DNA of 64,000 nucleotides from Microbacterium sp. Gd 4-13 (GTDB taxonomy: Bacteria > Actinomycetota > Actinomycetes > Actinomycetales > Microbacteriaceae). This document shows, piece after piece, positions 14,876-30,996 of this stretch (position 1 is the stretch's first letter; each line of letters begins with the position of its first letter). Position numbers and translations under genes: made by a program. The stretch spans positions 1 to 64,000 of the forward strand of contig NZ_QEIJ01000006.1 in NCBI RefSeq assembly GCF_003095395.1. The letters are read 5' to 3'. A model generated the notes under the pieces. The model ran no database searches. It worked only from the letters and a program-made list of their open reading frames with translations, and was not told the DNA's origin.

Positions 14876-16411
14876 TCACTCGTGCTGCGGGAAGCCCAGA
14901 TTCAGGCCTCCGTGCGAGGGGTCGAGCCAGCGCGAGGTCACCGCCTTCTCCTGCGTGAAGAAGTCGAACCCGTGCGTGCCGTAGGCCTTCGCGTCGCCGA
15001 ACAGCGACGCCTTCCACCCGCCGAACGAGTGGTACGCCACCGGCACGGGGATCGGCACGTTCACGCCGATCATGCCGACCTGCACCTCGTGCTGGAAGCG
15101 GCGCGCGGCCCCGCCGTCGTTCGTGAAGATCGCCGTGCCGTTTCCGAAGGCGCCCGAGTTGATCATCTCGAGACCCTCCTCGTACCCGGCGACGCGGATC
15201 ACGGACAGCACCGGTCCGAAGATCTCCTCGCGATAGGCGGCCGAGGCCGTCGGCACGCGGTCGAGCAGGGTCGGGCCGAGCCAGAATCCGTCGGCGTCAC
15301 CGTCGACGGCGGCACCGCGCCCGTCGACGACGACGTCCGCCCCGTCGCCGGAGGCCACATCGATGTACGACGCGACCTTGTCGCGGTGGGCGGCGGTGAT
15401 CAGCGGTCCCATGTCGGTGCCGCGGGTGCCGTCGCCGATCGTGAGTCGTCCCATGCGCTCGCGCACCTTCTCGATGAGCGCGTCGGCGACCGTGTCGACG
15501 GCGAGCACGACCGACACGGCCATGCAGCGCTCGCCCGCCGAGCCGAAGCCGGCGTTCACCGCCGCGTCGGCGGTCAGGTCGAGGTCGGCGTCGGGGAGGA
15601 CGAGCATGTGGTTCTTCGCGCCGCCGAGCGCCTGCACGCGCTTGCCGAGCCGGGTGCCCGTCTCGTACACGTACCGCGCGATCGGGGTCGAGCCGACGAA
15701 CGAGATCGCGCGCACGTCGGGGTGCTCGAGCAGGGCGTCGACCGCCGTCTTGTCTCCGTGGACGACCGAGAAGACGCCGTCGGGCAGCCCCGCCTCCTTC
15801 AGCCGGGCCGCCATCCAGTTCGCCGCCGACGGGTCTTTCTCGCTGGGCTTGAGTACGACCGCGTTGCCGGCCGCGAGAGCGAGTGGGAAGAACCACATGG
15901 GCACCATCGCCGGGAAGTTGAACGGGCTGATGATCCCGACGACGCCGAGCGGCTGCCGCAGGGTGTAGACGTCGACGCCCGTCGAGACGTTCTCGGAGTA
16001 GGCGCCCTTGTTGAGCGTGCCGACGCCGCAGGCGAACTCGATCACCTCGAGGCCGCGCGCGATCTCGCCGAGGGCGTCGGAGGTGACCTTGCCGTGCTCG
16101 GAGGTGAGGATCGCGGCGAGTTCGTCCTTCCTCGCGTTCACCAGCTCGCGGAACGCGAACAGCACCTGCGTGCGCTTCGAGATGCTCGTATCGCCCCACA
16201 CGGCGGCCGCGCGCGAGGCCGAGGCGACGGCATCAGCGACGTCCTGCGTCGAGGCGAACCGCACCTCCTTCTGCACGACACCGCGCGCCGGGTCGAACAC
16301 CGGACCCGTGCGGTCGGACGAGCCGGGCCACGGTGCGCCGTCGACCCAGTGGTCCAGCACGACGGTGTCGGATGCTGCGGCGGGGGGAGCCGTGAGTGCG
16401 GTATCGGCCAT
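14876..16411 (-). CDS. mmsA: CoA-acylating methylmalonate/malonate-semialdehyde dehydrogenase
   Basis: 511 residues of the aldehyde dehydrogenase superfamily. Seen are IISPFNFPAMVPMWFFPLALAAGNAVVLKPSEKDPS (cofactor site), GSTPIARYVYETGTRLGKRVQALGGAKNH with the MMSDH-specific AKNH, and the nucleophile in GSAGERCMA (Cys about 296). This subfamily forms acetyl-CoA or propionyl-CoA, NADH and CO2 from malonate or methylmalonate semialdehyde. In this cluster it would finish beta-alanine breakdown to acetyl-CoA. ATG 16411 has AAAGGA upstream; a longer frame to 16792 is a shadow of the aminotransferase gene. It is the last gene of the five-gene pyrimidine operon, 25 nt after the aminotransferase. Confidence 0.93.
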   Translation of the reverse strand: MADTALTAPPAAASDTVVLDHWVDGAPWPGSSDRTGPVFDPARGVVQKEVRFASTQDVADAVASASRAAAVWGDTSISKRTQVLFAFRELVNARKDELAAILTSEHGKVTSDALGEIARGLEVIEFACGVGTLNKGAYSENVSTGVDVYTLRQPLGVVGIISPFNFPAMVPMWFFPLALAAGNAVVLKPSEKDPSAANWMAARLKEAGLPDGVFSVVHGDKTAVDALLEHPDVRAISFVGSTPIARYVYETGTRLGKRVQALGGAKNHMLVLPDADLDLTADAAVNAGFGSAGERCMAVSVVLAVDTVADALIEKVRERMGRLTIGDGTRGTDMGPLITAAHRDKVASYIDVASGDGADVVVDGRGAAVDGDADGFWLGPTLLDRVPTASAAYREEIFGPVLSVIRVAGYEEGLEMINSGAFGNGTAIFTNDGGAARRFQHEVQVGMIGVNVPIPVPVAYHSFGGWKASLFGDAKAYGTHGFDFFTQEKAVTSRWLDPSHGGLNLGFPQHE

Positions 16412-16436: not shown

Positions 16437-17759
16437 TCAGCGAGCGCGGGCGAGGTCGGTGAAGGCCTCGTCGTAGATGGCGGCGGCCTGATCGACCTCA
16501 TCGGCCGTGACCACGCAGGGCGGTACGACGTGGATGCGGTTCTCGGACACGAAGGGGAGGAGCCCCCGGGCGACGAGGCCGCTCTTGAGCGCGCCCATGG
16601 CCGCGCCCGACAGCGGCTGGCGGGTGGTGCGGTCGGCGACGAGCTCGAGCGCCCAGAAGACGCCCTCGCCGCGCACCTCTCCGATGACGTCGTGCCGGTC
16701 GGCGAGAGCCCGCAGCGCCGGGCCGATCGAGTCGGCTCCGATGCGTACGGCGTGCTCGACGATGCCTTCGCCCGCCATCGCGTCGAGGGCACCGATGATC
16801 GAGGCCGCGGCGAGCGGGTGCCCGCTGTAGGTGAGTCCGCCGGGGAAGACCTGCTCGTCGAACTGCGCGGCGATGGGGTCGGATATGATGACGCCGCCGA
16901 CGGGCACGTAGCCGGAGTTCACGCCCTTGGCGAAGGTGATGAGGTCGGGCACGACGTCGTAGCCGTCGAAGGCGAACCAGCGTCCGGTGCGGCCGAACCC
17001 TGCCATCACCTCGTCGAGGATCAGCACGATGCCGTACCGGTCGGCCAGACCCCGGACGCCGGCGAGGTATCCCGGCGGCGGCACGAGCACCCCGGCGGTG
17101 CCGGGGATCGTCTCGAGCAGGATCGCGGCGATCGTGGTGGGGCCCTCGGCCTGGATCACGCGCTCGAGGTGGCGGAGCGCGCGCTCGCACTCCTCCTCGG
17201 GGCTGTTCGCCCAGAACTCGGTGCGGTAGAGGTACGGGCCGAAGAAGTGCACGTGCCCTCGGGCGTACTGGTTCGGGATGCGCCGCCAATCGCCGGTGGA
17301 GACGATCGCGGCTCCGGTGTTGCCGTGGTACGAGCGGTAGGTCGACAGCACCGTGTCGCGGCCGGTGTGCAATCGCGCGAGTCGGATGGCGTTCTCGTTC
17401 GCGTCAGCGCCGCCGTTGGTGAAGAAGACCTTCTCGAAGCCGTCGGGCGCCCGCTCGACGATGCGTCGCGCTGCTTCTCCCCGCGCGAGGTTCGCCGTCG
17501 CGGGTCCGATGGTCGCGAGGGTCGCCGCCTGCTCCTGGATGGCGCGGACGACGGCCGGATGCTGGTGGCCGATGTTCACGTTCACGAGCTGGCTGGAGAA
17601 GTCCAGGTAGCGGGTGCCGGCGTGATCCCACACGGTGGTGCCGGACCCCCCGGCGATCACCATCGGATCGAGCGCCCCCTGCGCCGACCACGAGTGGAAG
17701 ACGTGCGCGCGGTCGAGGTCCTTCGTGCGGGCGTCGAGGTCTGTCGTGTCGTGGTCCAT
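16437..17759 (-). CDS. Class III aminotransferase, probable beta-alanine:pyruvate (or oxoglutarate) type
   Basis: 440 residues, PLP-dependent fold type I. Key segments: GTRYLDFSSQLVNVNIGHQHPAV, the PLP-phosphate site TNGGADANENAIRLAR, LILDEVMAGFGRTG with the PLP-ring aspartate, and the Schiff-base lysine in DLITFAKGVNSGY (Lys about 278). It transfers an omega-amino group. With ureidopropionase and the semialdehyde dehydrogenase alongside, beta-alanine to malonate semialdehyde is the natural reaction, though class III enzymes also act on GABA, ornithine or taurine. I start at ATG 17759 because TGAGGATG lies upstream; GTG 17771 and ATG 17765 are alternatives. Confidence 0.88.
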   Translation of the reverse strand: MDHDTTDLDARTKDLDRAHVFHSWSAQGALDPMVIAGGSGTTVWDHAGTRYLDFSSQLVNVNIGHQHPAVVRAIQEQAATLATIGPATANLARGEAARRIVERAPDGFEKVFFTNGGADANENAIRLARLHTGRDTVLSTYRSYHGNTGAAIVSTGDWRRIPNQYARGHVHFFGPYLYRTEFWANSPEEECERALRHLERVIQAEGPTTIAAILLETIPGTAGVLVPPPGYLAGVRGLADRYGIVLILDEVMAGFGRTGRWFAFDGYDVVPDLITFAKGVNSGYVPVGGVIISDPIAAQFDEQVFPGGLTYSGHPLAAASIIGALDAMAGEGIVEHAVRIGADSIGPALRALADRHDVIGEVRGEGVFWALELVADRTTRQPLSGAAMGALKSGLVARGLLPFVSENRIHVVPPCVVTADEVDQAAAIYDEAFTDLARAR

Positions 17760-17844
17760 CGGCATCCTCACCGTCGAGTCGCGTCGTCCGGCCGGAACCC
17801 CGACCTGTCATCGACCATACGGCGTGATCCGCGCGCCGCGCAGG

Positions 17845-18879
17845 TCACGCTTTCGCCGTCACGTGCTGCTGGAGCGCGGGGATGACGGTCTCGCCGTACA
17901 CCCGGAGGGTCTCCTCCTTGTTGTCGTGCTGCAGGTAGCCCGCGAACTGGGTGACCCCGAGTGCGCGCAACCGCTCGAGCTTCGCGATGTGCTCCTCGGC
18001 GGTGCCGAGGATGCAGAAGCGCTCGACGATCTCGTCGGGCACGAAGTCGACGTGGTCGTTGCCGGCCTTGCCGTGGGAGTTGTAGTCGTAACCGGTGCGC
18101 CCGGCGATGTAGTCGGTGAGCGCCTCGGGCACAGCGCTGCCGGTCCCTGAGCCTGTCGAAGGGCCGTACTTCGCCACGATGTCGGCGACGTGATTGCCGA
18201 CCATCCCGCCGAACCACCGTGTCTGGTCGATCATGTGGGCCCGGTCGGTGCCGATGTACATCGGGGCTGCGACGCAGAACGCGATCGCGTCGGGGTCGCG
18301 CCCGGCGGCGGCCGCAGCATCCCGCACCGTCGTGATCATCCACTCCGCGATGTCGACGTCGGCGAGCTGCAGGATGAACCCGTCGGCGACCTCGCCCGTG
18401 AGCTTCAGCGCCATCGGTCCGTAGGCGGCGACCCAGACGTCGAGCTCGGAGCCGCGGCTCCACGGAAACTGCAGGGTCGCGCCCTTGTACTCGACGGGCC
18501 GCGAGTTCGCGAGCTCGCGGATGACGTGGATCGACTCGCGCAGCTCGGCCATCGTCGACGGGCGTCCGTTGGTGACCCGCACCGCGGAGTCGCCGCGTCC
18601 GATGCCGCACACCGTGCGATTGCCGTACATCTCGTTGAGCGTCGCGAAGATCGAGGCCGTCACCGTCCAGTCGCGCGTGGCAGGATTGGTCACGAGCGGA
18701 CCGACCGTCACCCGGCGGGTGGTCGCGAGGATGGCCGAGTAAATGACGTAGGGCTCCTCCCACAGCAGGTGCGAGTCGAACGTCCACACGTGCGAGAACC
18801 CGTGCGCCTCGGCCAGTTGGGCGAGGTGGATCACCCGCGAGGCGGGCGGATTGGTCTGCAGAACGACGCCGAAGTCCAT
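17845..18879 (-). CDS. Luciferase-like F420-dependent oxidoreductase of the pyrimidine operon (TIGR03842-like)
   Basis: 344 residues, TIM-barrel luciferase-like monooxygenase fold: MDFGVVLQTNPPASRVIHLAQLAEAHGFSHVWTFDSHLLWEEPY at the start, TVGPLVTNPATRDWTVTASIFATLNEMYGNRTVCGIGRGDSAVR and WVAAYGPMALKLTGEVADGFIL. Family members bind F420 or FMN. As far as I recall, TIGR03842-type proteins recur beside dihydropyrimidinase genes; that is from memory. Its reaction is unknown; see findings. The ATG 18879 has AAAGGAG just upstream. About residues 239-246 (PSTGSGTG) are encoded by a dispersed palindromic repeat translated in frame, a segment that looks like an insertion relative to the barrel. The gene lies between dihydropyrimidinase and the aminotransferase in the same operon. 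Confidence 0.85.
   Translation of the reverse strand: MDFGVVLQTNPPASRVIHLAQLAEAHGFSHVWTFDSHLLWEEPYVIYSAILATTRRVTVGPLVTNPATRDWTVTASIFATLNEMYGNRTVCGIGRGDSAVRVTNGRPSTMAELRESIHVIRELANSRPVEYKGATLQFPWSRGSELDVWVAAYGPMALKLTGEVADGFILQLADVDIAEWMITTVRDAAAAAGRDPDAIAFCVAAPMYIGTDRAHMIDQTRWFGGMVGNHVADIVAKYGPSTGSGTGSAVPEALTDYIAGRTGYDYNSHGKAGNDHVDFVPDEIVERFCILGTAEEHIAKLERLRALGVTQFAGYLQHDNKEETLRVYGETVIPALQQHVTAKA
18142..18163. repeat. REP-type palindrome inside the F420 oxidoreductase gene
   Basis: The plus strand reads GGTCCCTGAGCCTGTCGAAG then GG. It differs from the intergenic copy at 18890-18911 by a single base. It lies in the coding region of the LLM gene and is translated in frame as part of GPSTGSGTG. 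The imperfect palindrome CCCTTCGACAGGCTCAGGG can form a short stem. This repeat is common in Microbacteriaceae and other GC-rich genomes, as I recall. Confidence 0.8.
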
Positions 18880-18889
18880 GATCTCCTTT

Positions 18890-18935
18890 GGTCCCTGAGC
18901 TTGTCGAAGGGTAGTCCTTGAGCTGTTCCGAAGGG
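18890..18935. repeat. Two REP-type palindromes between dihydropyrimidinase and LLM gene
   Basis: A near-canonical copy (18890-18911, CCTTCGACAAGCTCAGGGAC on the minus strand) and a degenerate one (18913-18935) lie back to back in the 56-nt spacer. The first ends directly before AAAGGAG, the ribosome site of the LLM gene. The same family occurs in the coding region 730 nt away. The transcript could fold here and affect LLM translation relative to upstream genes; this is inference. Confidence 0.75.
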
Positions 18936-20366
18936 TCAGATCAGGTACTGGCTGAGCCCGCGCTTGACGAACCGGCCGTCGCCCTTGGTACCGCGGTAGG
19001 CGCCGTCGTCGACGATGACCCGCCCGCGCGAGAGCACGGTGTCGACGTGTCCGTCGATCTGGAACCCCTCCCACGCCGAGTGGTCCATGTTCATGTGGTG
19101 GGATGCTGCGCTGATGGTCGTGCGACCGTTCGGGTCGTAGACGACGATGTCGGCGTCGGCCCCCGGCTGGATGACGCCTTTCCTGCCGTACATGCCGAAC
19201 ATGCGCGCCGGGGTCGTGCTGGTCAGCTCCACCCAGCGCTCGAGGGTCAGTTCGCCGGTGACAACGCCCTGGTACATGAGATCCATCCGGTGCTCGACCG
19301 AGCCGATGCCGTTGGGGATGGCGCGGAAGTCGTTCCTGCCGAGCTCCTTCTGCCCCTTCATGCAGAACGGGCAGTGATCGGTCGAGACCATCTGCACGTC
19401 GTTCGTGCGCAGCGCCTGCCACATGTGGTGCTGGTGGCCCTCGGCGCGAGAGCGCAGCGGTGTCGAGCACACCCACTTCGCGCCCTCGAACTGGCCCCAC
19501 TCCTCGCTGAAGGCGCCGAGCTGCTCCTCGAGCGAGAGGTAGAGATACTGCGGACAGGTCTCGCCGAACACGTTCCAGCCCTGGTCGCGCGCCCAGGCGA
19601 GCTGGTCGACGGCCTGCTTCGCCGACACGTGCACGACGTAGAGCGGGGCGCCGGTGAGGTTCGCGAGCATGATGGCGCGGTGCGTCGCCTCCTCCTCCAT
19701 CTGCCAGGCGCGCGCGATGCCGTGGTAGTACGGTGCGATCTTGCCGGCTTCGGCGAGCTGGGCGGCCAGCACGTCGATCGCCGGGCCGTTCTCGGCGTGC
19801 ATCATCGTGAGAAGGCCCGTCTCGGCCGACTTCTGCATGGCTCTGAGGATCTGCCCGTCGTCGGAGTAGAAGACGCCGGGGTAGGCCATGAACAGCTTGA
19901 AACTCGTGATCCCCTCGTCGACCAGCGAATCCATCGCCCGCAGTGACGCGTCGTCGACGCCGCCGATGATCTGATGGAACCCGTAGTCGATCGCGCAGGT
20001 GCCGGCGGCCTTCTCGTGCCACGCGGCGAGTCCGTCCTGCACCCGCTCACCGGTCTTCTGCACGGCGAAGTCGACGATCGTGGTCGTACCGCCCCAGGCG
20101 GCGGCCCGGGTGCCCGTCTCGAACGTGTCGGACGCGTTCGTGCCGCCGAACGGCAGCTCCATGTGGGTGTGCGCGTCGATGCCGCCGGGGATGACGTACT
20201 TGCCCGTCGCGTCGATCACGGTATCGACGTTCGCGGCGATGTCGAAGCCCAGCAGCGCCGAGCCCGGCGCCAGCACCGCGGCGATCGTCTCGCCGTCGAC
20301 CAGCACGTCGGCCAGGCTCGAGCCCGTCGCCGTGACGACGGTGCCACCCGTGATGAGTGTCTTCAT
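18936..20366 (-). CDS. hydA: Dihydropyrimidinase / D-hydantoinase
   Basis: 476 residues, cyclic amidohydrolase fold. The metal site is visible: HTHM (His66, His68), carboxylated-lysine candidate Lys157 in SFKLFM, then histidines in TMMHAENG and VVHVSAKQ and the aspartate in STDHCPF. The enzyme opens 5,6-dihydrouracil to N-carbamoyl-beta-alanine. It is flanked by the hydrolase for that product and the enzymes for beta-alanine, which supports dihydropyrimidinase over a hydantoin-specific role. ATG 20366 fits the family start MKTLITGGTVVTATG. The stop at 18936 is followed directly by two REP palindromes. Second gene of the operon. Confidence 0.95.
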   Translation of the reverse strand: MKTLITGGTVVTATGSSLADVLVDGETIAAVLAPGSALLGFDIAANVDTVIDATGKYVIPGGIDAHTHMELPFGGTNASDTFETGTRAAAWGGTTTIVDFAVQKTGERVQDGLAAWHEKAAGTCAIDYGFHQIIGGVDDASLRAMDSLVDEGITSFKLFMAYPGVFYSDDGQILRAMQKSAETGLLTMMHAENGPAIDVLAAQLAEAGKIAPYYHGIARAWQMEEEATHRAIMLANLTGAPLYVVHVSAKQAVDQLAWARDQGWNVFGETCPQYLYLSLEEQLGAFSEEWGQFEGAKWVCSTPLRSRAEGHQHHMWQALRTNDVQMVSTDHCPFCMKGQKELGRNDFRAIPNGIGSVEHRMDLMYQGVVTGELTLERWVELTSTTPARMFGMYGRKGVIQPGADADIVVYDPNGRTTISAASHHMNMDHSAWEGFQIDGHVDTVLSRGRVIVDDGAYRGTKGDGRFVKRGLSQYLI

Positions 20367-20454
20367 GGCCTAACCTCCGTCGCTCCGCTCGGTCTGGAGG
20401 CCGACCCGATACCCAGGTGCTCGAGGCGGGCGGTGACCCGGGCAGTCGCGGCGC

Positions 20455-21303
20455 TCACGGCTGCGCGATCCCGGTGTAGGAGTCGGGGCGGCGATCCCGA
20501 TAGAACTGCCAGTCGTCGCGCATCTGCCGCACCATGTCGAGGTCGAGATCGCGCACCAGCACCTCCTCGTGCTCGCCCGAGCCGCGCTCGCCGACGAAAT
20601 TCCCCCGCGGGTCGATCACCTGGCTGGTGCCGTAGAAGTCCACCGCGAGCTCCCCGTACTCGTTGTCTTCGCGGCCGACGCGGTTGGGCTGCAGCACGAA
20701 GTAGCCGTTCGCGACGGCCGCGGCCGGGCCCTCGACCTCCCACAGGCGGTTCGACAGCCCGGGCTTGGTGGCGTTGGGGTTGAACACCATGTGCGCGTCG
20801 TTCAGACCCAGCTCGCGCCAGCCCTCGGGGAAGTGGCGGTCGTAGCAGATGTACATCCCGATCCGACCGACCGCGGTGTCGAAGACCGGGTAGCCGAGGT
20901 TGCCCGGACGGAAGTAGAACTTCTCCCAGAACCGATCGAGGTGGGGGAGGTGGTGCTTGCGATACTTCCCCAGGATCGAGCCGTCGGCATCGACGAGCAC
21001 CGAGGTGTTGTAGTAGACGCCGGTCTGCGCCTCCTCGTAGATCGGGAGCACCATCACCGTGCCGAGCTCTCGAGCGAGGTCGGCGAACCGCTGCACGATC
21101 GGCCCGTCGGCCGCCTCGGCGAAGCCGTAGTACTTCTTGTCCTGCGTGATGCCGAAGTACGGGCCGTAGAACAGCTCCTGGAAGCAGACGACCTCTGCCC
21201 CGCCGTCGGCGGCGTCGCGCGCGAAGCGCTCGTGCTTGTCGAGCATCGAGGCTTTGTCGCCCGTCCACGTCGTCTGGGTGATGGCCGCTCGTACTGTCGT
21301 CAC
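20455..21303 (-). CDS. N-carbamoyl-beta-alanine amidohydrolase (beta-ureidopropionase), nitrilase superfamily
   Basis: 282 residues. The nitrilase triad is present: Glu43 in FQELFYGP, Lys116 in KYRKHHLPH and Cys153 in YICYDRHFPEGW. EKFYFRPGNLGYPVFDT and GYFVLQPNRVGREDNEYG match the ureidopropionase branch. It hydrolyses N-carbamoyl-beta-alanine to beta-alanine, CO2 and ammonia. The start is GTG 21303 because GGAGG precedes it at 5-6 nt; ATG 21315 would place that site inside the gene. It heads the five-gene operon and is divergent from the histidine kinase gene, with a 139-nt spacer holding both promoters. Confidence 0.93.
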   Translation of the reverse strand: MTTVRAAITQTTWTGDKASMLDKHERFARDAADGGAEVVCFQELFYGPYFGITQDKKYYGFAEAADGPIVQRFADLARELGTVMVLPIYEEAQTGVYYNTSVLVDADGSILGKYRKHHLPHLDRFWEKFYFRPGNLGYPVFDTAVGRIGMYICYDRHFPEGWRELGLNDAHMVFNPNATKPGLSNRLWEVEGPAAAVANGYFVLQPNRVGREDNEYGELAVDFYGTSQVIDPRGNFVGERGSGEHEEVLVRDLDLDMVRQMRDDWQFYRDRRPDSYTGIAQP

Positions 21304-21442
21304 TGCTACCTCCATGCTGATCGTGGTGGTGCTCGCCCGCACTGCATCCCTACCGCACCTCGGCCGTCGCCACAACGGTCGGGGCCTCATCTACATCGCG
21401 AGGCGGATGCTGGGGGCGGCCCCGACGCGTACGGTGAAAGCG

Positions 21443-28660: not shown

Positions 28661-28719
28661 GCGTTCCTCCGACGCCGTGCGGCGGTCGGGAGCGAGCGGG
28701 CCGCCACTACCGTGGGGTG

Positions 28720-29475
28720 ATGGGCACGATCGACCTGAACGCCGACCTCGGCGAGACGATCCGCGGGGTCGCCACGGCCGACGACGAGGCCATGTTCGCG
28801 CTCATCTCGAGCGCGAACATCGCCTGCGGAGGGCACGCGGGCGACGCGGCGTCGATGCGGGCGTCGGTGACGCGCGCGGAACGATTCGGCGTCGCCGTCG
28901 GCGCCCACCCGTCGTACGTCGACCCCGAGAACTTCGGCCGCGTGCGCCGCGACCCCGGGGCTGTCGCCCTGCGCGCGCAGATCGCGGCGCAGCTCGACGC
29001 GCTCCGCGCCGCGGGCGCCGAGATCCGGTACGTCAAGCCCCACGGAGCGCTCTACCACGCGGTCGTGGACGACGCGGGGCAGGCCGACGCGCTCGTGGAT
29101 GCCGTCGCCGACCTCGCGTCCGACCTCGGTCGTCCCGTTCCGCTCCTGGGCGTGGGCGGCGAGGTCGAGCGGGCAGCGGTCGCTGCGGGTCTGCCGTTTC
29201 GTCGGGAGGCCTTCCTCGACCGCGGCTACCTCTCGACCGGCGCTCTCGTCCCGCGCGGGGAGCCGGGCGACCTCCTCGACGACCCACAGGCCGTCGCCGC
29301 CCGCGCGCGGCGCCTCGTCGCCGACGGCGAGCTCGACGCGGTCGACGGCACTCGGCTGCGACCGAACGCCGACTCGCTCTGCGTGCACGGCGACACCCCG
29401 GCCTCCGTCGCGATGGCGCGGGCGGTGCGCCGCGGTCTCGCGGCCGACGGCGTGAGCGTGAGGGCGCCGTGGTGA
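28720..29475 (+). CDS. pxpA: 5-oxoprolinase subunit A (LamB/YcsF family)
   Basis: 251 residues, close to the usual 245-255. Motifs: IDLNADLGE, SSANIACGGHAGDAA, VGAHPSYVDPENFGR and VKPHGALYHA, then CVHGDT near the end. PxpA works with PxpB and PxpC to hydrolyse 5-oxoproline (pyroglutamate) to glutamate with ATP. I chose the ATG at 28720; the GTG one codon earlier is equally possible. It is the first gene of a three-gene operon, 10 nt from pxpB. Confidence 0.94.
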   Translation: MGTIDLNADLGETIRGVATADDEAMFALISSANIACGGHAGDAASMRASVTRAERFGVAVGAHPSYVDPENFGRVRRDPGAVALRAQIAAQLDALRAAGAEIRYVKPHGALYHAVVDDAGQADALVDAVADLASDLGRPVPLLGVGGEVERAAVAAGLPFRREAFLDRGYLSTGALVPRGEPGDLLDDPQAVAARARRLVADGELDAVDGTRLRPNADSLCVHGDTPASVAMARAVRRGLAADGVSVRAPW

Positions 29476-29485
29476 GGTGTCGGCG

Positions 29486-30130
29486 ATGAGCGGCGGCGAC
29501 GCCGCATCCGTCGTCGTCCGTCCGATGGGCGACCGGGCGCTCCTGGCCGAGGCCGGCTCGCTCGACGCGGTGCTCGCCCTCCATGCGACGCTGGATGCGA
29601 CCAGGCCCGCCGGCGTCATCGACCTCGTGCCCGCCGCGCGTACGATCCTGATCGCCGTCGACCCTGCCGTGCTGGCAGTGTCGCGAGCGCGCGCATGGAT
29701 CGTCGACGCGGCCGAGGCCGCGGGGACGGATGCTGCCGGGCCCGGCCCGCTCGTCGAGATCGCGGTGCGGTACGACGGGCCCGACCTCGCCGGCACCGCC
29801 GAACTGCTCGGACTGACGCCGCGCGCTCTCGTCGAGCGCCATCTGGCGACCGAGTGGTCGGTCGCTTTCACCGGTTTCGCGCCGGGGTTCGCCTACCTCG
29901 TCGGCGCGGGGTGGCCCTTCGAGGTGCCGCGGTTGGCCGCGCCCCGCACGCGCGTGCCGGCCGGGGCCGTCGGACTGGCCGGATCGTTCTGCGGTGCCTA
30001 CCCCCGCGAGACCCCCGGGGGGTGGCGCCTGATCGGCACGACACGGGCGACCCTGTTCGACCCCGACGCCGACGATCCGGTGCTCCTCGCACCCCGCAGC
30101 CGTGTGCGCTTCACCGAGGTGACGGGGTGA
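29486..30130 (+). CDS. pxpB: 5-oxoprolinase subunit B (KipI-like)
   Basis: 214 residues, cyclophilin-like fold. RPMGDRALLAEAGSLDAVLALHATL at the start and the conserved TGFAPGFAYLVG, PRLAAPRTRVPAGAVGLAGSFCGAYPRETPGGWRLIG are hallmarks of the allophanate-hydrolase subunit 1 domain. ATG 29486 has GAGG upstream; GTG 29477 is an alternative. The stop overlaps the pxpC GTG. In sporulating Bacillus, KipI inhibits kinase KinA; no such role is expected here. Confidence 0.93.
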   Translation: MSGGDAASVVVRPMGDRALLAEAGSLDAVLALHATLDATRPAGVIDLVPAARTILIAVDPAVLAVSRARAWIVDAAEAAGTDAAGPGPLVEIAVRYDGPDLAGTAELLGLTPRALVERHLATEWSVAFTGFAPGFAYLVGAGWPFEVPRLAAPRTRVPAGAVGLAGSFCGAYPRETPGGWRLIGTTRATLFDPDADDPVLLAPRSRVRFTEVTG

Positions 30131-30996
30131 GCCTGCGCGTGCTCGCGCCGGGCCTGTTCTCGACCGTCCAGGACCTCGGCCGGGCGGGGAGGGCGGCGCT
30201 CGGCATCGCGCGCTCGGGTGCCCTCGATCGCGGCGCGCTCCGGCTGGCGAACCGTCTCGTGGGCAACCGCGAGGGCGCCGCGGCGATCGAGGTGACCGTC
30301 GGCGGGTTCCGCGCCGTCGCCGAGTGCGACCTGTGGGTGGCCGTCGCCGGGGCGGGCGGCGACCTGCGCCTGGGCGGCCGCGGGGTCGACTCGCACGCGG
30401 CGGTGCGGTGGCCCGCGGGGGAGGAGCTGTCGCTCGCGCCCTTCGTCGCCGGTGTCAGGGCCTACGTGGCGGTGCGCGGCGGGATCGACGCGCCCGTCGT
30501 CGCGGGCTCGCGGTCGACCGACACGCTGGGCGGGCTCGGCGGGGCGCCGCTGCGCGTCGGCGACGGGCTCGCCGTCGGGCGGGAGGTTCTCGGCGAGGTG
30601 CCGACGATCGACGCCGTCCCCTGGCGCACGCACCCCGAGTCGCCGATCGAGGTGCGTCTGGCTCCCGGTCCGCGGACCGATTGGTTCGCCGCATCCGCCC
30701 TCTCCCTCCTCTTCGACGGTGCGTGGACGGTCGGCAGTGCCGCCGACCGGGTGGGGCTGCGCCTCGACGGGCCATCGCTCGAGCACGTGCACGACGGGGA
30801 GCTGCCGAGCGAGGGCATGGTGCCGGGTGCCCTGCAGGTGCCGCCGAGCGGGCGTCCGACGATCCTTCTGGCCGATGGTCCCGTGACCGGCGGGTATCCC
30901 GTGATCGCGGTGGTGGCGGATGCGTCGCTGGACGCCCTCGGTCAGGCCAGGCCCGGCGACCGCGTGCGCTTCTCCCACGCGCGCCTGATCGAGTAG
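30127..30996 (+). CDS. pxpC: 5-oxoprolinase subunit C (KipA-like, biotin-independent carboxylase-like fold)
   Basis: 289 residues. Allophanate-hydrolase subunit 2 features: LFSTVQDLGRAGRAALGIARSGALDRGALRLANRLVGN, AYVAVRGGIDAPVVAGSRSTDTLGGLGG and GMVPGALQVPPSGRPTILLADGPVTGGYPVIAVV. With PxpA and PxpB it completes the ATP-dependent 5-oxoprolinase. GTG 30127 overlaps the pxpB stop by one base, so translation is coupled. After the stop lies the long repeat-rich spacer before rpoB; no T-rich terminator is seen. Confidence 0.94.
   Translation: MSLRVLAPGLFSTVQDLGRAGRAALGIARSGALDRGALRLANRLVGNREGAAAIEVTVGGFRAVAECDLWVAVAGAGGDLRLGGRGVDSHAAVRWPAGEELSLAPFVAGVRAYVAVRGGIDAPVVAGSRSTDTLGGLGGAPLRVGDGLAVGREVLGEVPTIDAVPWRTHPESPIEVRLAPGPRTDWFAASALSLLFDGAWTVGSAADRVGLRLDGPSLEHVHDGELPSEGMVPGALQVPPSGRPTILLADGPVTGGYPVIAVVADASLDALGQARPGDRVRFSHARLIE

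Follow-up and report, generated by a model that had tools for sequence, protein, structure and literature searches.

Uracil is reduced to dihydrouracil by PreTA/PydA at the head of the reductive pathway, and its ring is opened oxidatively by RutA, whose product in the Rut pathway is ureidoacrylate. Among F420-dependent enzymes, Mer carries Glu6 in its active site. The structure of an E6Q mutant of Mer has been deposited as 8qq8. In the available part of PMC7332683, PydAc is a ferredoxin-dependent dihydropyrimidine dehydrogenase, and in the available part of PMC10714638, SSGG-03002, a putative F420/FMN oxidoreductase, is described as needed in vivo for C5-C6 reduction of uracil and as giving no product in vitro. 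A Streptomyces venezuelae strain deleted for fbiC has been published (PMC12282290). In this study, sequence comparison leads us to regard as likely that an LLM-class protein of Microbacterium catalyses the opening step in a reductive pyrimidine operon, as an F420H2-dependent uracil/thymine reductase replacing PreTA/PydA non-homologously. In the literature searched, mostly outside subscription papers and bioRxiv preprints, we found no printed claim of an F420-dependent uracil reductase for this operon type; the nearest printed ideas are analogous proposals only, namely uracil-ring reduction in mureidomycins and the yanthine reductase of Chloroflexota. The same literature yielded neither TIGR03842/CPS_4043 by name nor biochemical or genetic data on a member.

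Organization of the operon

The following features were identified in the window, that is, the whole stretch of 64,000 nt that was analysed:

14876..16411, minus strand, CoA-acylating (methyl)malonate-semialdehyde dehydrogenase (MMSDH), TIGR01722 673.9 bits against a cut-off of 448.5
16437..17771, minus strand, class III aminotransferase, putative beta-alanine / 3-aminoisobutyrate transaminase, PRK06062 740.7 bits
17845..18879, minus strand, LLM-class protein of 344 aa, TIGR03842 574.1 bits against a cut-off of 295.45, PF00296 the only Pfam match
18143..18160, minus strand, 18-bp repeat, copy 1, in frame within the LLM gene
18891..18908, minus strand, 18-bp repeat, copy 2, between the dihydropyrimidinase and LLM genes
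18936..20366, minus strand, dihydropyrimidinase / D-hydantoinase, TIGR02033 545.5 bits against a cut-off of 393.25
20455..21315, minus strand, nitrilase-superfamily enzyme, putative N-carbamoyl-beta-alanine amidohydrolase (beta-ureidopropionase), PF00795

The first-pass annotation had assigned to this operon every enzyme after dihydrouracil and had placed the LLM gene between those for dihydropyrimidinase and aminotransferase. Family models do find the dihydropyrimidinase, nitrilase-type enzyme, transaminase and MMSDH, and the coordinates confirm the gene order, all on the minus strand, with the operon extending past the LLM gene (beyond 17845-21303) through the aminotransferase and MMSDH genes. 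The LLM gene starts at ATG 18879 with an AAAGGAG-like site just 5' of it, and the nitrilase-type gene has two candidate starts, ATG 21315 or GTG 21303, the latter being the end used in the first pass. Hydantoinases and dihydropyrimidinases are the solved relatives of the window dihydropyrimidinase (best E 3.3e-139), D-hydantoinases being the nearest, and the best solved relative of the aminotransferase is a taurine:2-oxoglutarate aminotransferase. For the nitrilase-type enzyme, two solved relatives share the best match, N-carbamoylputrescine amidohydrolase and beta-ureidopropionase; its top NCBIfam model, N-carbamoylputrescine amidase (TIGR03381), scores 227.4 bits and does not reach the cut-off of 410.25. 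Judged by families and closest relatives, the genes form a Pyd-type set (dihydropyrimidinase, ureidopropionase, omega-amino acid transaminase and semialdehyde dehydrogenase), the substrates of the nitrilase-type enzyme and the transaminase being predicted ones. The reductive first step is the sole pathway step without a gene among the recognised enzymes of the operon, and the usual ABC transporter is absent from the window.

The 18-bp repeat pattern has 2 matches in the window against 0 in 100 shuffles. Its copy 1 encodes part of an extra STGSGTG stretch of the LLM protein, an insertion visible in our alignment A1, and residues 241-247 of the protein are of low confidence in the predicted structure. 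A scan for promoters and terminators gave one promoter-like site (0.3 in shuffles) and one terminator-like site (1.6 in shuffles), neither of which was used.

The lack of a dihydropyrimidine dehydrogenase, also noted in the first pass, extends to the rest of the genome as far as PreA is concerned: its 3.43-Mb assembly gave 0 matches to PreA at both E<=1e-60 and E<=1e-40, and 0 to RutA at E<=1e-100 (these E-value limits, like those for LLM, CofD, CofG and BtuF, were chosen by us). PreA matches were likewise absent from 197 Actinomycetes (E<=1e-60) and 199 Microbacteriaceae (E<=1e-40), with or without the LLM protein; because PreA is missing regardless of the LLM protein, its absence alone does not point to the latter.

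Conservation of the locus and linkage to F420 genes

Among 80 loci of named relatives (22 of them shorter than 20.9 kb), the dihydropyrimidinase gene was present in all 80, directly before the LLM gene in the mapped loci, and the nitrilase gene in 77; two of the misses, L041 and L048, are contigs starting within the dihydropyrimidinase gene, while L116 is a real absence. Hits below 45% identity for transaminase and MMSDH, 42% for BtuF and 50% for FecCD were dropped from this count. Dihydropyrimidinase and nitrilase genes also adjoin the LLM gene in 17 of 18 further loci, which we picked from the 44 LLM-positive genomes among the 197 Actinomycetes of the class sample, and one of the 18, L158, carries the LLM gene with neither of them within 20 kb. 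A binding protein of an ABC transporter, of NMT1/THI5 type, occurs in 60 of the 80 loci, and an NCS1-type symporter homologue lies beside the LLM gene in 3 of the 18. Transporter, aminotransferase and MMSDH vary between loci, and the dihydropyrimidinase-LLM pair is kept in most. The grouping of the LLM gene with pyrimidine genes is more than chance, with counts inflated because the carriers are related, most of the counted loci belonging to a single class of bacteria and many to a single family.

Of 199 Microbacteriaceae, 71 had both LLM and CofD, 18 LLM only, 17 CofD only and 93 neither (Fisher p 1.5e-20), and cofD lay less than 20 kb from the LLM gene in 60 of the 71. The LLM-CofD association is weak across the class sample (42/44 against 124/153, p 0.019; hand counts, with the LLM-positive exceptions G074 and G152 being fragmented drafts), and these p-values overstate independence because the genomes are related. 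Within the DNA examined, 32 of the 80 loci of named relatives had no CofD, CofG, CofE or BtuF, and these include L041-L052, the 12 nearest to the window protein, of which some are short contigs; among the 58 loci of at least 20.9 kb, CofD, CofG or CofE was found in 32, and one of these or BtuF in 39. Four Cryobacterium loci (L083, L092, L099 and L105) carry BtuF, CofD and CofE and show no CofG in the DNA examined. In the window genome itself, the F420 genes lie on a contig other than that of the operon.

In Alphaproteobacteria, whose carriers are represented by plasmid records rather than whole genomes, cofE lies less than 1 kb from the LLM gene in 11 of 11 records with that gene, which amount to few independent cases because 10 come from two Leisingera species. 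The two fully read examples, from Paracoccus and Leisingera, share the run cofG-cofH-cofD-cofC-cofE-npdG-LLM, and their LLM proteins score 503.1 and 506.2 bits with TIGR03842, respectively. A nucleobase transporter, dihydropyrimidinase, carbamoylase-family amidase and aminotransferase are encoded near the run in Leisingera, so this 44%-identical member sits near pyrimidine genes in a different arrangement; on the Paracoccus plasmid, the annotation shows no dihydropyrimidinase up to 20 kb from the LLM gene. Such ties of the LLM gene to F420-supply genes in two phyla support F420 as the probable cofactor, for which comparative genomics thus provides backing.

Among 89 LLM-positive Microbacteriaceae, CofG was found in 38, a BtuF-like binding protein in 49, both in 0 and neither in 2, a split that suggests deazaflavin salvage in carriers without CofG. 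By genus, 23 of 41 had BtuF only and 15 CofG only, 1 had CofG and BtuF in different species, and 2 had a member without either. Both CofD and CofG were lacking in 18 of the 89, and all 18 keep CofE and a BtuF-like gene (CofE was sought in 25 genomes, all LLM-positive); these 18 carriers count against F420 unless the cofactor is salvaged. We somewhat favour a wider reading, namely that a second type of dihydropyrimidine dehydrogenase, dependent on F420, is widespread in Actinomycetes and also occurs in some Alphaproteobacteria, and that it matters enough for carriers without FbiC (or even CofD) to retain CofE together with a BtuF-FecCD-ABC importer, in most cases encoded close to the operon; they would scavenge Fo/F420 released by neighbours as a vitamin for pyrimidine catabolism. 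The CofG-or-transporter split puts deazaflavin salvage within direct test.

Proposed substrate and cofactor of the LLM protein

The score of the window protein makes it a member of TIGR03842 (F420_CPS_4043), a family with no function assigned to it. Neither PRK08318, the model for PreA/PydA, nor TIGR03612, that for RutA, was among its 22 NCBIfam matches (E<=0.001), and with the Mer model TIGR03555 it reached 135.8 bits against a cut-off of 348.7; a strict Mer homologue was rejected on this score and on the changed Glu6 position. F420-dependent Mer enzymes are its nearest solved relatives by both sequence and structure, and on structural realignment the top 15 entries are all F420 enzymes (Z 28.8-36.2), the first monooxygenase following at 27.7. 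Membership of the protein in the F420-dependent branch of the LLM superfamily is putative, the nearest structures and the F420-gene linkage being indirect indications. No DHO_dh-type enzyme is among the 50 structure matches listed for it, which by itself is uninformative.

Reduction of uracil with F420H2, hypothesised in the first-pass annotation from the order of the genes alone, emerges as the best-supported reading from the lack of PreA and RutA matches, the F420-enzyme structures and the F420-gene linkage; the substrate, hydride chemistry and use of F420 versus FMN are what we infer from these. The LLM protein would take hydride from F420H2 and reduce uracil and/or thymine at the C5-C6 double bond, with dihydrouracil or dihydrothymine as product; the ring would then be opened by dihydropyrimidinase, the nitrilase-type enzyme would free beta-alanine or 3-aminoisobutyrate with CO2 and ammonia, the transaminase would form the semialdehyde, and MMSDH would yield acetyl- or propionyl-CoA.

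Alternatively, the protein might use F420H2 to reduce a different but related ring, be it an unsaturated hydantoin, a pyrimidine with substituents or a ring derived from purines such as yanthine, the operon degrading that compound, which we consider improbable. Dihydropyrimidinases and hydantoinases are promiscuous, and D-hydantoinases are nearest to the window enzyme; hydantoin and allantoin are among the compounds carried by NCS1 symporters, and the Leisingera transporter scores as NCS1, with allantoin permease below cut-off; the Leisingera amidase also exceeds the cut-off of an allantoate amidohydrolase subfamily; and the Chloroflexota proposal provides a precedent in description. On the other hand, a transaminase with a CoA-acylating MMSDH fits the beta-alanine / 3-aminoisobutyrate route and not the alpha-amino acids derived from hydantoins, a C=C reductase is needless for a saturated hydantoin, and the cyclic amidohydrolases encoded in the window and in Leisingera score above the cut-off for dihydropyrimidinase and below that for allantoinase; a main role in the breakdown of hydantoin or allantoin was therefore judged unlikely.

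Reduction of uracil with FMNH2, or with FMN that stays bound to the protein and is regenerated by NAD(P)H, instead of F420 appears still less probable: while many LLM proteins use FMN, and the 18 carriers without CofD and CofG are in keeping with it, the same 18 all keep CofE and a BtuF-like gene, the nearest enzymes in sequence and structure are F420-dependent, and the LLM gene ends a run for F420 biosynthesis and reduction in two Alphaproteobacteria. RutA-like oxidative opening of uracil with FMNH2 and O2 is most improbable. The kinship with RutA pointed out in the first pass holds at the superfamily level, with RutA structures aligning at Z 23.9-24.5, but not at the family level, TIGR03612 being unmatched; moreover, a route through ureidoacrylate would skip dihydropyrimidinase, whose gene is in 80 of 80 loci, and RutG, the sole other Rut protein looked for near the operon, was not found in the window. 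It is equally hard to credit that the protein is a passenger of unrelated redox function, near the operon by ancestry, since, for all the inflated counts and the solitary LLM gene of L158, the pyrimidine genes near the Leisingera member are arranged differently and the dihydropyrimidinase-LLM pair persists in most loci while its partners vary.

If F420H2-dependent uracil/thymine reduction is true, a textbook enzyme has a non-homologous replacement, uracil and thymine breakdown in Actinomycetes without PreTA is accounted for, and F420 gains a concrete catabolic role in aerobic, common bacteria; should fluoropyrimidines be accepted, speculatively, a new route of their inactivation would follow.

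Comparison with known systems

With PreTA/PydA the LLM protein would share the proposed reaction and the position at the pathway head, but it belongs to the LLM family, has PF00296 with no DHO_dh or Fe-S domain, and would use F420H2 where PreTA/PydA uses NAD(P)H or ferredoxin. Among solved structures, those of Mer come closest to it (identity of 25-30% and Z of 34.5-36.2), and Mer has the VTNP, TAS, ATL and GIG-GD stretches in common with it, whereas the Glu6 position is Val in the 15 proteins of alignment A1 and Cys in both alphaproteobacterial LLM proteins, and the LLM gene sits among pyrimidine genes. RutA is of the same superfamily and acts on uracil, but differs in its FMN/O2 ring opening, family model and downstream genes. 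SSGG-03002/NpsU, of mureidomycin and napsamycin, is likened to the LLM protein by its description in the available part of the source and differs in serving antibiotic biosynthesis. The yanthine reductase of Chloroflexota uricolytic clusters, as described in the available part of PMC12507026, is likewise a PF00296 protein proposed as a replacement reductase in reductive ring breakdown with an amidohydrolase neighbour; this likeness, again by description, is to a bioinformatic proposal for a purine pathway in another phylum.

The operon and its missing first step

The LLM gene is the third of five consecutive genes that run on the minus strand of the window from 21315 down to 14876, with intergenic gaps of 25-89 bases and a plausible ribosome-binding site upstream of the LLM gene:

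First gene, minus strand: nitrilase-superfamily carbamoyl amidohydrolase
Second gene, minus strand: dihydropyrimidinase
Third gene, minus strand: LLM-class protein
Fourth gene, minus strand: class III aminotransferase
Fifth gene, minus strand: CoA-acylating methylmalonate-semialdehyde dehydrogenase (MMSDH)

Genes read and family-matched in the window confirmed those described in the first-pass annotation, whose coordinates took in only the first three of the five. The operon lies on contig C6 of a 3.43 Mb assembly of 20 contigs, and the closest named relatives of LLM are Microbacterium proteins (82-87% identity), which makes a Microbacterium the probable source. An 18-bp repeat occurs in two copies, one in frame within the LLM gene (18143-18160, inside the extra STGSGTG stretch) and the other just upstream of its start (18891-18908); the pattern, itself written from these two copies, is absent from shuffles. 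Three adjoining plus-strand ORFs at 28717-30996 resemble PxpA/PxpB/PxpC (5-oxoprolinase) by eye.

The four neighbour enzymes of LLM represent the reductive pyrimidine pathway downstream of dihydrouracil or dihydrothymine. That a dihydropyrimidine dehydrogenase is lacking was borne out by profile searches for PreA (PRK08318), which detected the E. coli positive control and gave no match in the window genome (E<=1e-60 and E<=1e-40), in 197 sampled Actinomycetes (E<=1e-60) or in 199 Microbacteriaceae (E<=1e-40). RutA, the uracil monooxygenase, was matched at E<=1e-100 in 11 of the 199 Microbacteriaceae, three of them above the RutA cut-off, and not in the window genome at that threshold. Some other enzyme must act in place of PreA if uracil is reduced at all, although PreA is absent regardless of LLM, so its absence alone does not single out LLM.

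Conserved neighbourhood and F420 linkage

Among 80 named actinobacterial LLM loci, compared at unequal lengths, dihydropyrimidinase was present in all 80, a nitrilase-type gene in 77 (contig ends account for two of the misses), an NMT1/THI5-type binding protein in 60, an aminotransferase in 57 and MMSDH in 28, and no PreA, PreT or RutA was seen. The class sample has 44 LLM-positive genomes, of which a further 18 loci were hand-chosen; dihydropyrimidinase and nitrilase genes accompanied LLM in 17, an NMT1-type transporter occurred in eight and an NCS1 symporter homologue adjoined LLM in three. In the remaining locus (L158) LLM stood alone, without dihydropyrimidinase and nitrilase genes in the 20 kb covered. 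A named Streptomyces plasmid carries LLM and dihydropyrimidinase, with a nitrilase-type gene about 3.6 kb further. Separately, a possible regulator of the operon is encoded on the opposite strand, upstream of the nitrilase gene (L046:6176-8410, minus): a MocR-type GntR/aminotransferase protein, whose ORF cluster, family-scanned on one member, is present in 45 of 81 loci.

LLM was found in 89 and CofD in 88 of the 199 Microbacteriaceae genomes (71 both, 18 LLM only, 17 CofD only, 93 neither; p 1.5e-20), and CofD lies within 20 kb of LLM in 60 of the 71 genomes with both. In the class sample the association is weak (CofD in 42/44 LLM-positive vs 124/153 other genomes, p 0.019), because most genomes have CofD regardless. 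In the window genome, whose F420 genes lie on another contig than the operon, the match to the CofG half of FbiC passed its cut-off; those to the CofH half and to the model of full-length FbiC stayed below theirs. An FGD-family LLM gene adjoins CofE at L127:14601-15569, with similar arrangements in L129, L130, L137 and L138; it perhaps encodes an F420-reducing dehydrogenase. Of the copies scanned (L127 and a partial one in L137), that of L127 scored above the TIGR03557 cut-off and below those of TIGR03554 and TIGR03885.

In two Alphaproteobacteria, a family member 44% identical and above the family cut-off closes the run cofG-cofH-cofD-cofC-cofE-npdG. In Leisingera caerulea this run faces a gene cluster for an NCS1 transporter, dihydropyrimidinase, a carbamoylase-family amidase, an aminotransferase and an NAD(P) transhydrogenase, a gene content which suggests that electrons pass along a single path from NADH through NADPH and F420H2 to uracil. 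The Leisingera cyclic amidohydrolase passed the dihydropyrimidinase cut-off and failed that of allantoinase; the amidase also scored above the cut-off for an allantoate amidohydrolase subfamily. Among plasmid records, 50 had a CofE match and 12 appeared in the LLM search, the overlap being 11 alphaproteobacterial records only (ten from two Leisingera species), in all of which cofE lies within 1 kb of LLM; F420 therefore has other uses in Proteobacteria. On the Paracoccus plasmid, none of the genes annotated within 20 kb is a dihydropyrimidinase. The Agrobacterium rubi plasmid pW2_73_1 (L161:2226-13427) carries an F420 cluster annotated as cofD, cofC, cofH, cofE and npdG, together with gabT, 5-oxoprolinase-type genes and another LLM protein that matched no NCBIfam model at E<=1e-40. 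This cluster may hold a second F420-dependent catabolic reductase, distinct from the first.

The proposal that LLM is an F420H2-dependent uracil reductase, drawn originally from gene order, is well supported by comparative genomics, short of proof. We consider F420H2-dependent reduction of uracil or thymine the likely activity of LLM, the main alternative being that its substrate is a related ring.

Putative deazaflavin salvage

Eighteen LLM-positive Microbacteriaceae were without CofD and CofG. Were F420 irrelevant, these genomes could be without any F420 gene, yet CofE was kept in all 18, and in some of their loci CofE and LLM have transporter genes of the BtuF, FecCD and ABC types close by. 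Regions with the BtuF-like gene in the wider sample include:

L131:9792-12741, BtuF-like/FecCD/ABC genes
L136:7119-9157, BtuF-like/FecCD/ABC genes
L141:7600-10261, BtuF-like/FecCD/ABC genes

The BtuF-like binding protein was then searched across the same 199 genomes and found in 57 (two matches contain stop codons). Of these, 55 also carry LLM or CofD; the 45 CofG-positive genomes all lack it. Of the 89 LLM carriers, 38 had CofG without BtuF, 49 BtuF without CofG, none both and two neither (p 4e-23); in the 110 genomes without LLM, CofG occurred in seven and BtuF in eight. The BtuF-like gene lies within 20 kb of LLM in 41 of the 49 carriers, and 2.8-13.1 kb from CofE in 19 of the 21 BtuF-positive genomes with listed CofE positions, including three with LLM 0.75-1.7 Mb away from CofE. 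The window genome gave no BtuF-like match. Most simply, genomes that retain CofD would take up Fo, and those that retain only CofE would take up F420 itself; we propose the BtuF-like protein as a candidate for importing Fo or F420, and its presence as an indication of deazaflavin salvage. Within the literature searched, no study of a transporter of this kind came up. According to a study of a Streptomyces venezuelae fbiC mutant, cells are already known to lose Fo by diffusion, and the mutant became autofluorescent in wild-type spent medium (PMC12282290).

LLM family, structure and known systems

LLM belongs to TIGR03842, a model named CPS_4043 that carries no functional assignment. The family is strongly conserved among Actinomycetes, where 14 other members are 58-79% identical to the window protein; a literature search found no paper naming TIGR03842 or CPS_4043. 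Among 13 matches in a solved-structure profile search, ten F420-dependent enzymes, with Mer at the top, rank above the first luciferase. An AlphaFold2 model (mean pLDDT 81.5) agreed with this: its eight best Foldseek matches were Mer chains, and after realignment F420 enzymes filled the first 15 places (Z 28.8-36.2), ahead of the first monooxygenase (Z 27.7) and RutA (Z ~24). LLM is not Mer in the strict sense: its score is far under the Mer cut-off, and the TIGR03842 proteins compared have Val or Cys where Mer has Glu6.

A survey of ferredoxin-dependent PydAc gathered its candidates by dihydroorotate-dehydrogenase and ferredoxin domains, and would thus be blind to an LLM enzyme (PMC7332683). 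Two proposals are analogous to LLM as an F420 reductase: SSGG-03002/NpsU, a putative F420/FMN oxidoreductase that gave no product in vitro and is required for uracil C5-C6 reduction in mureidomycins (PMC10714638), and a putative F420-dependent yanthine reductase proposed in Chloroflexota (PMC12507026).
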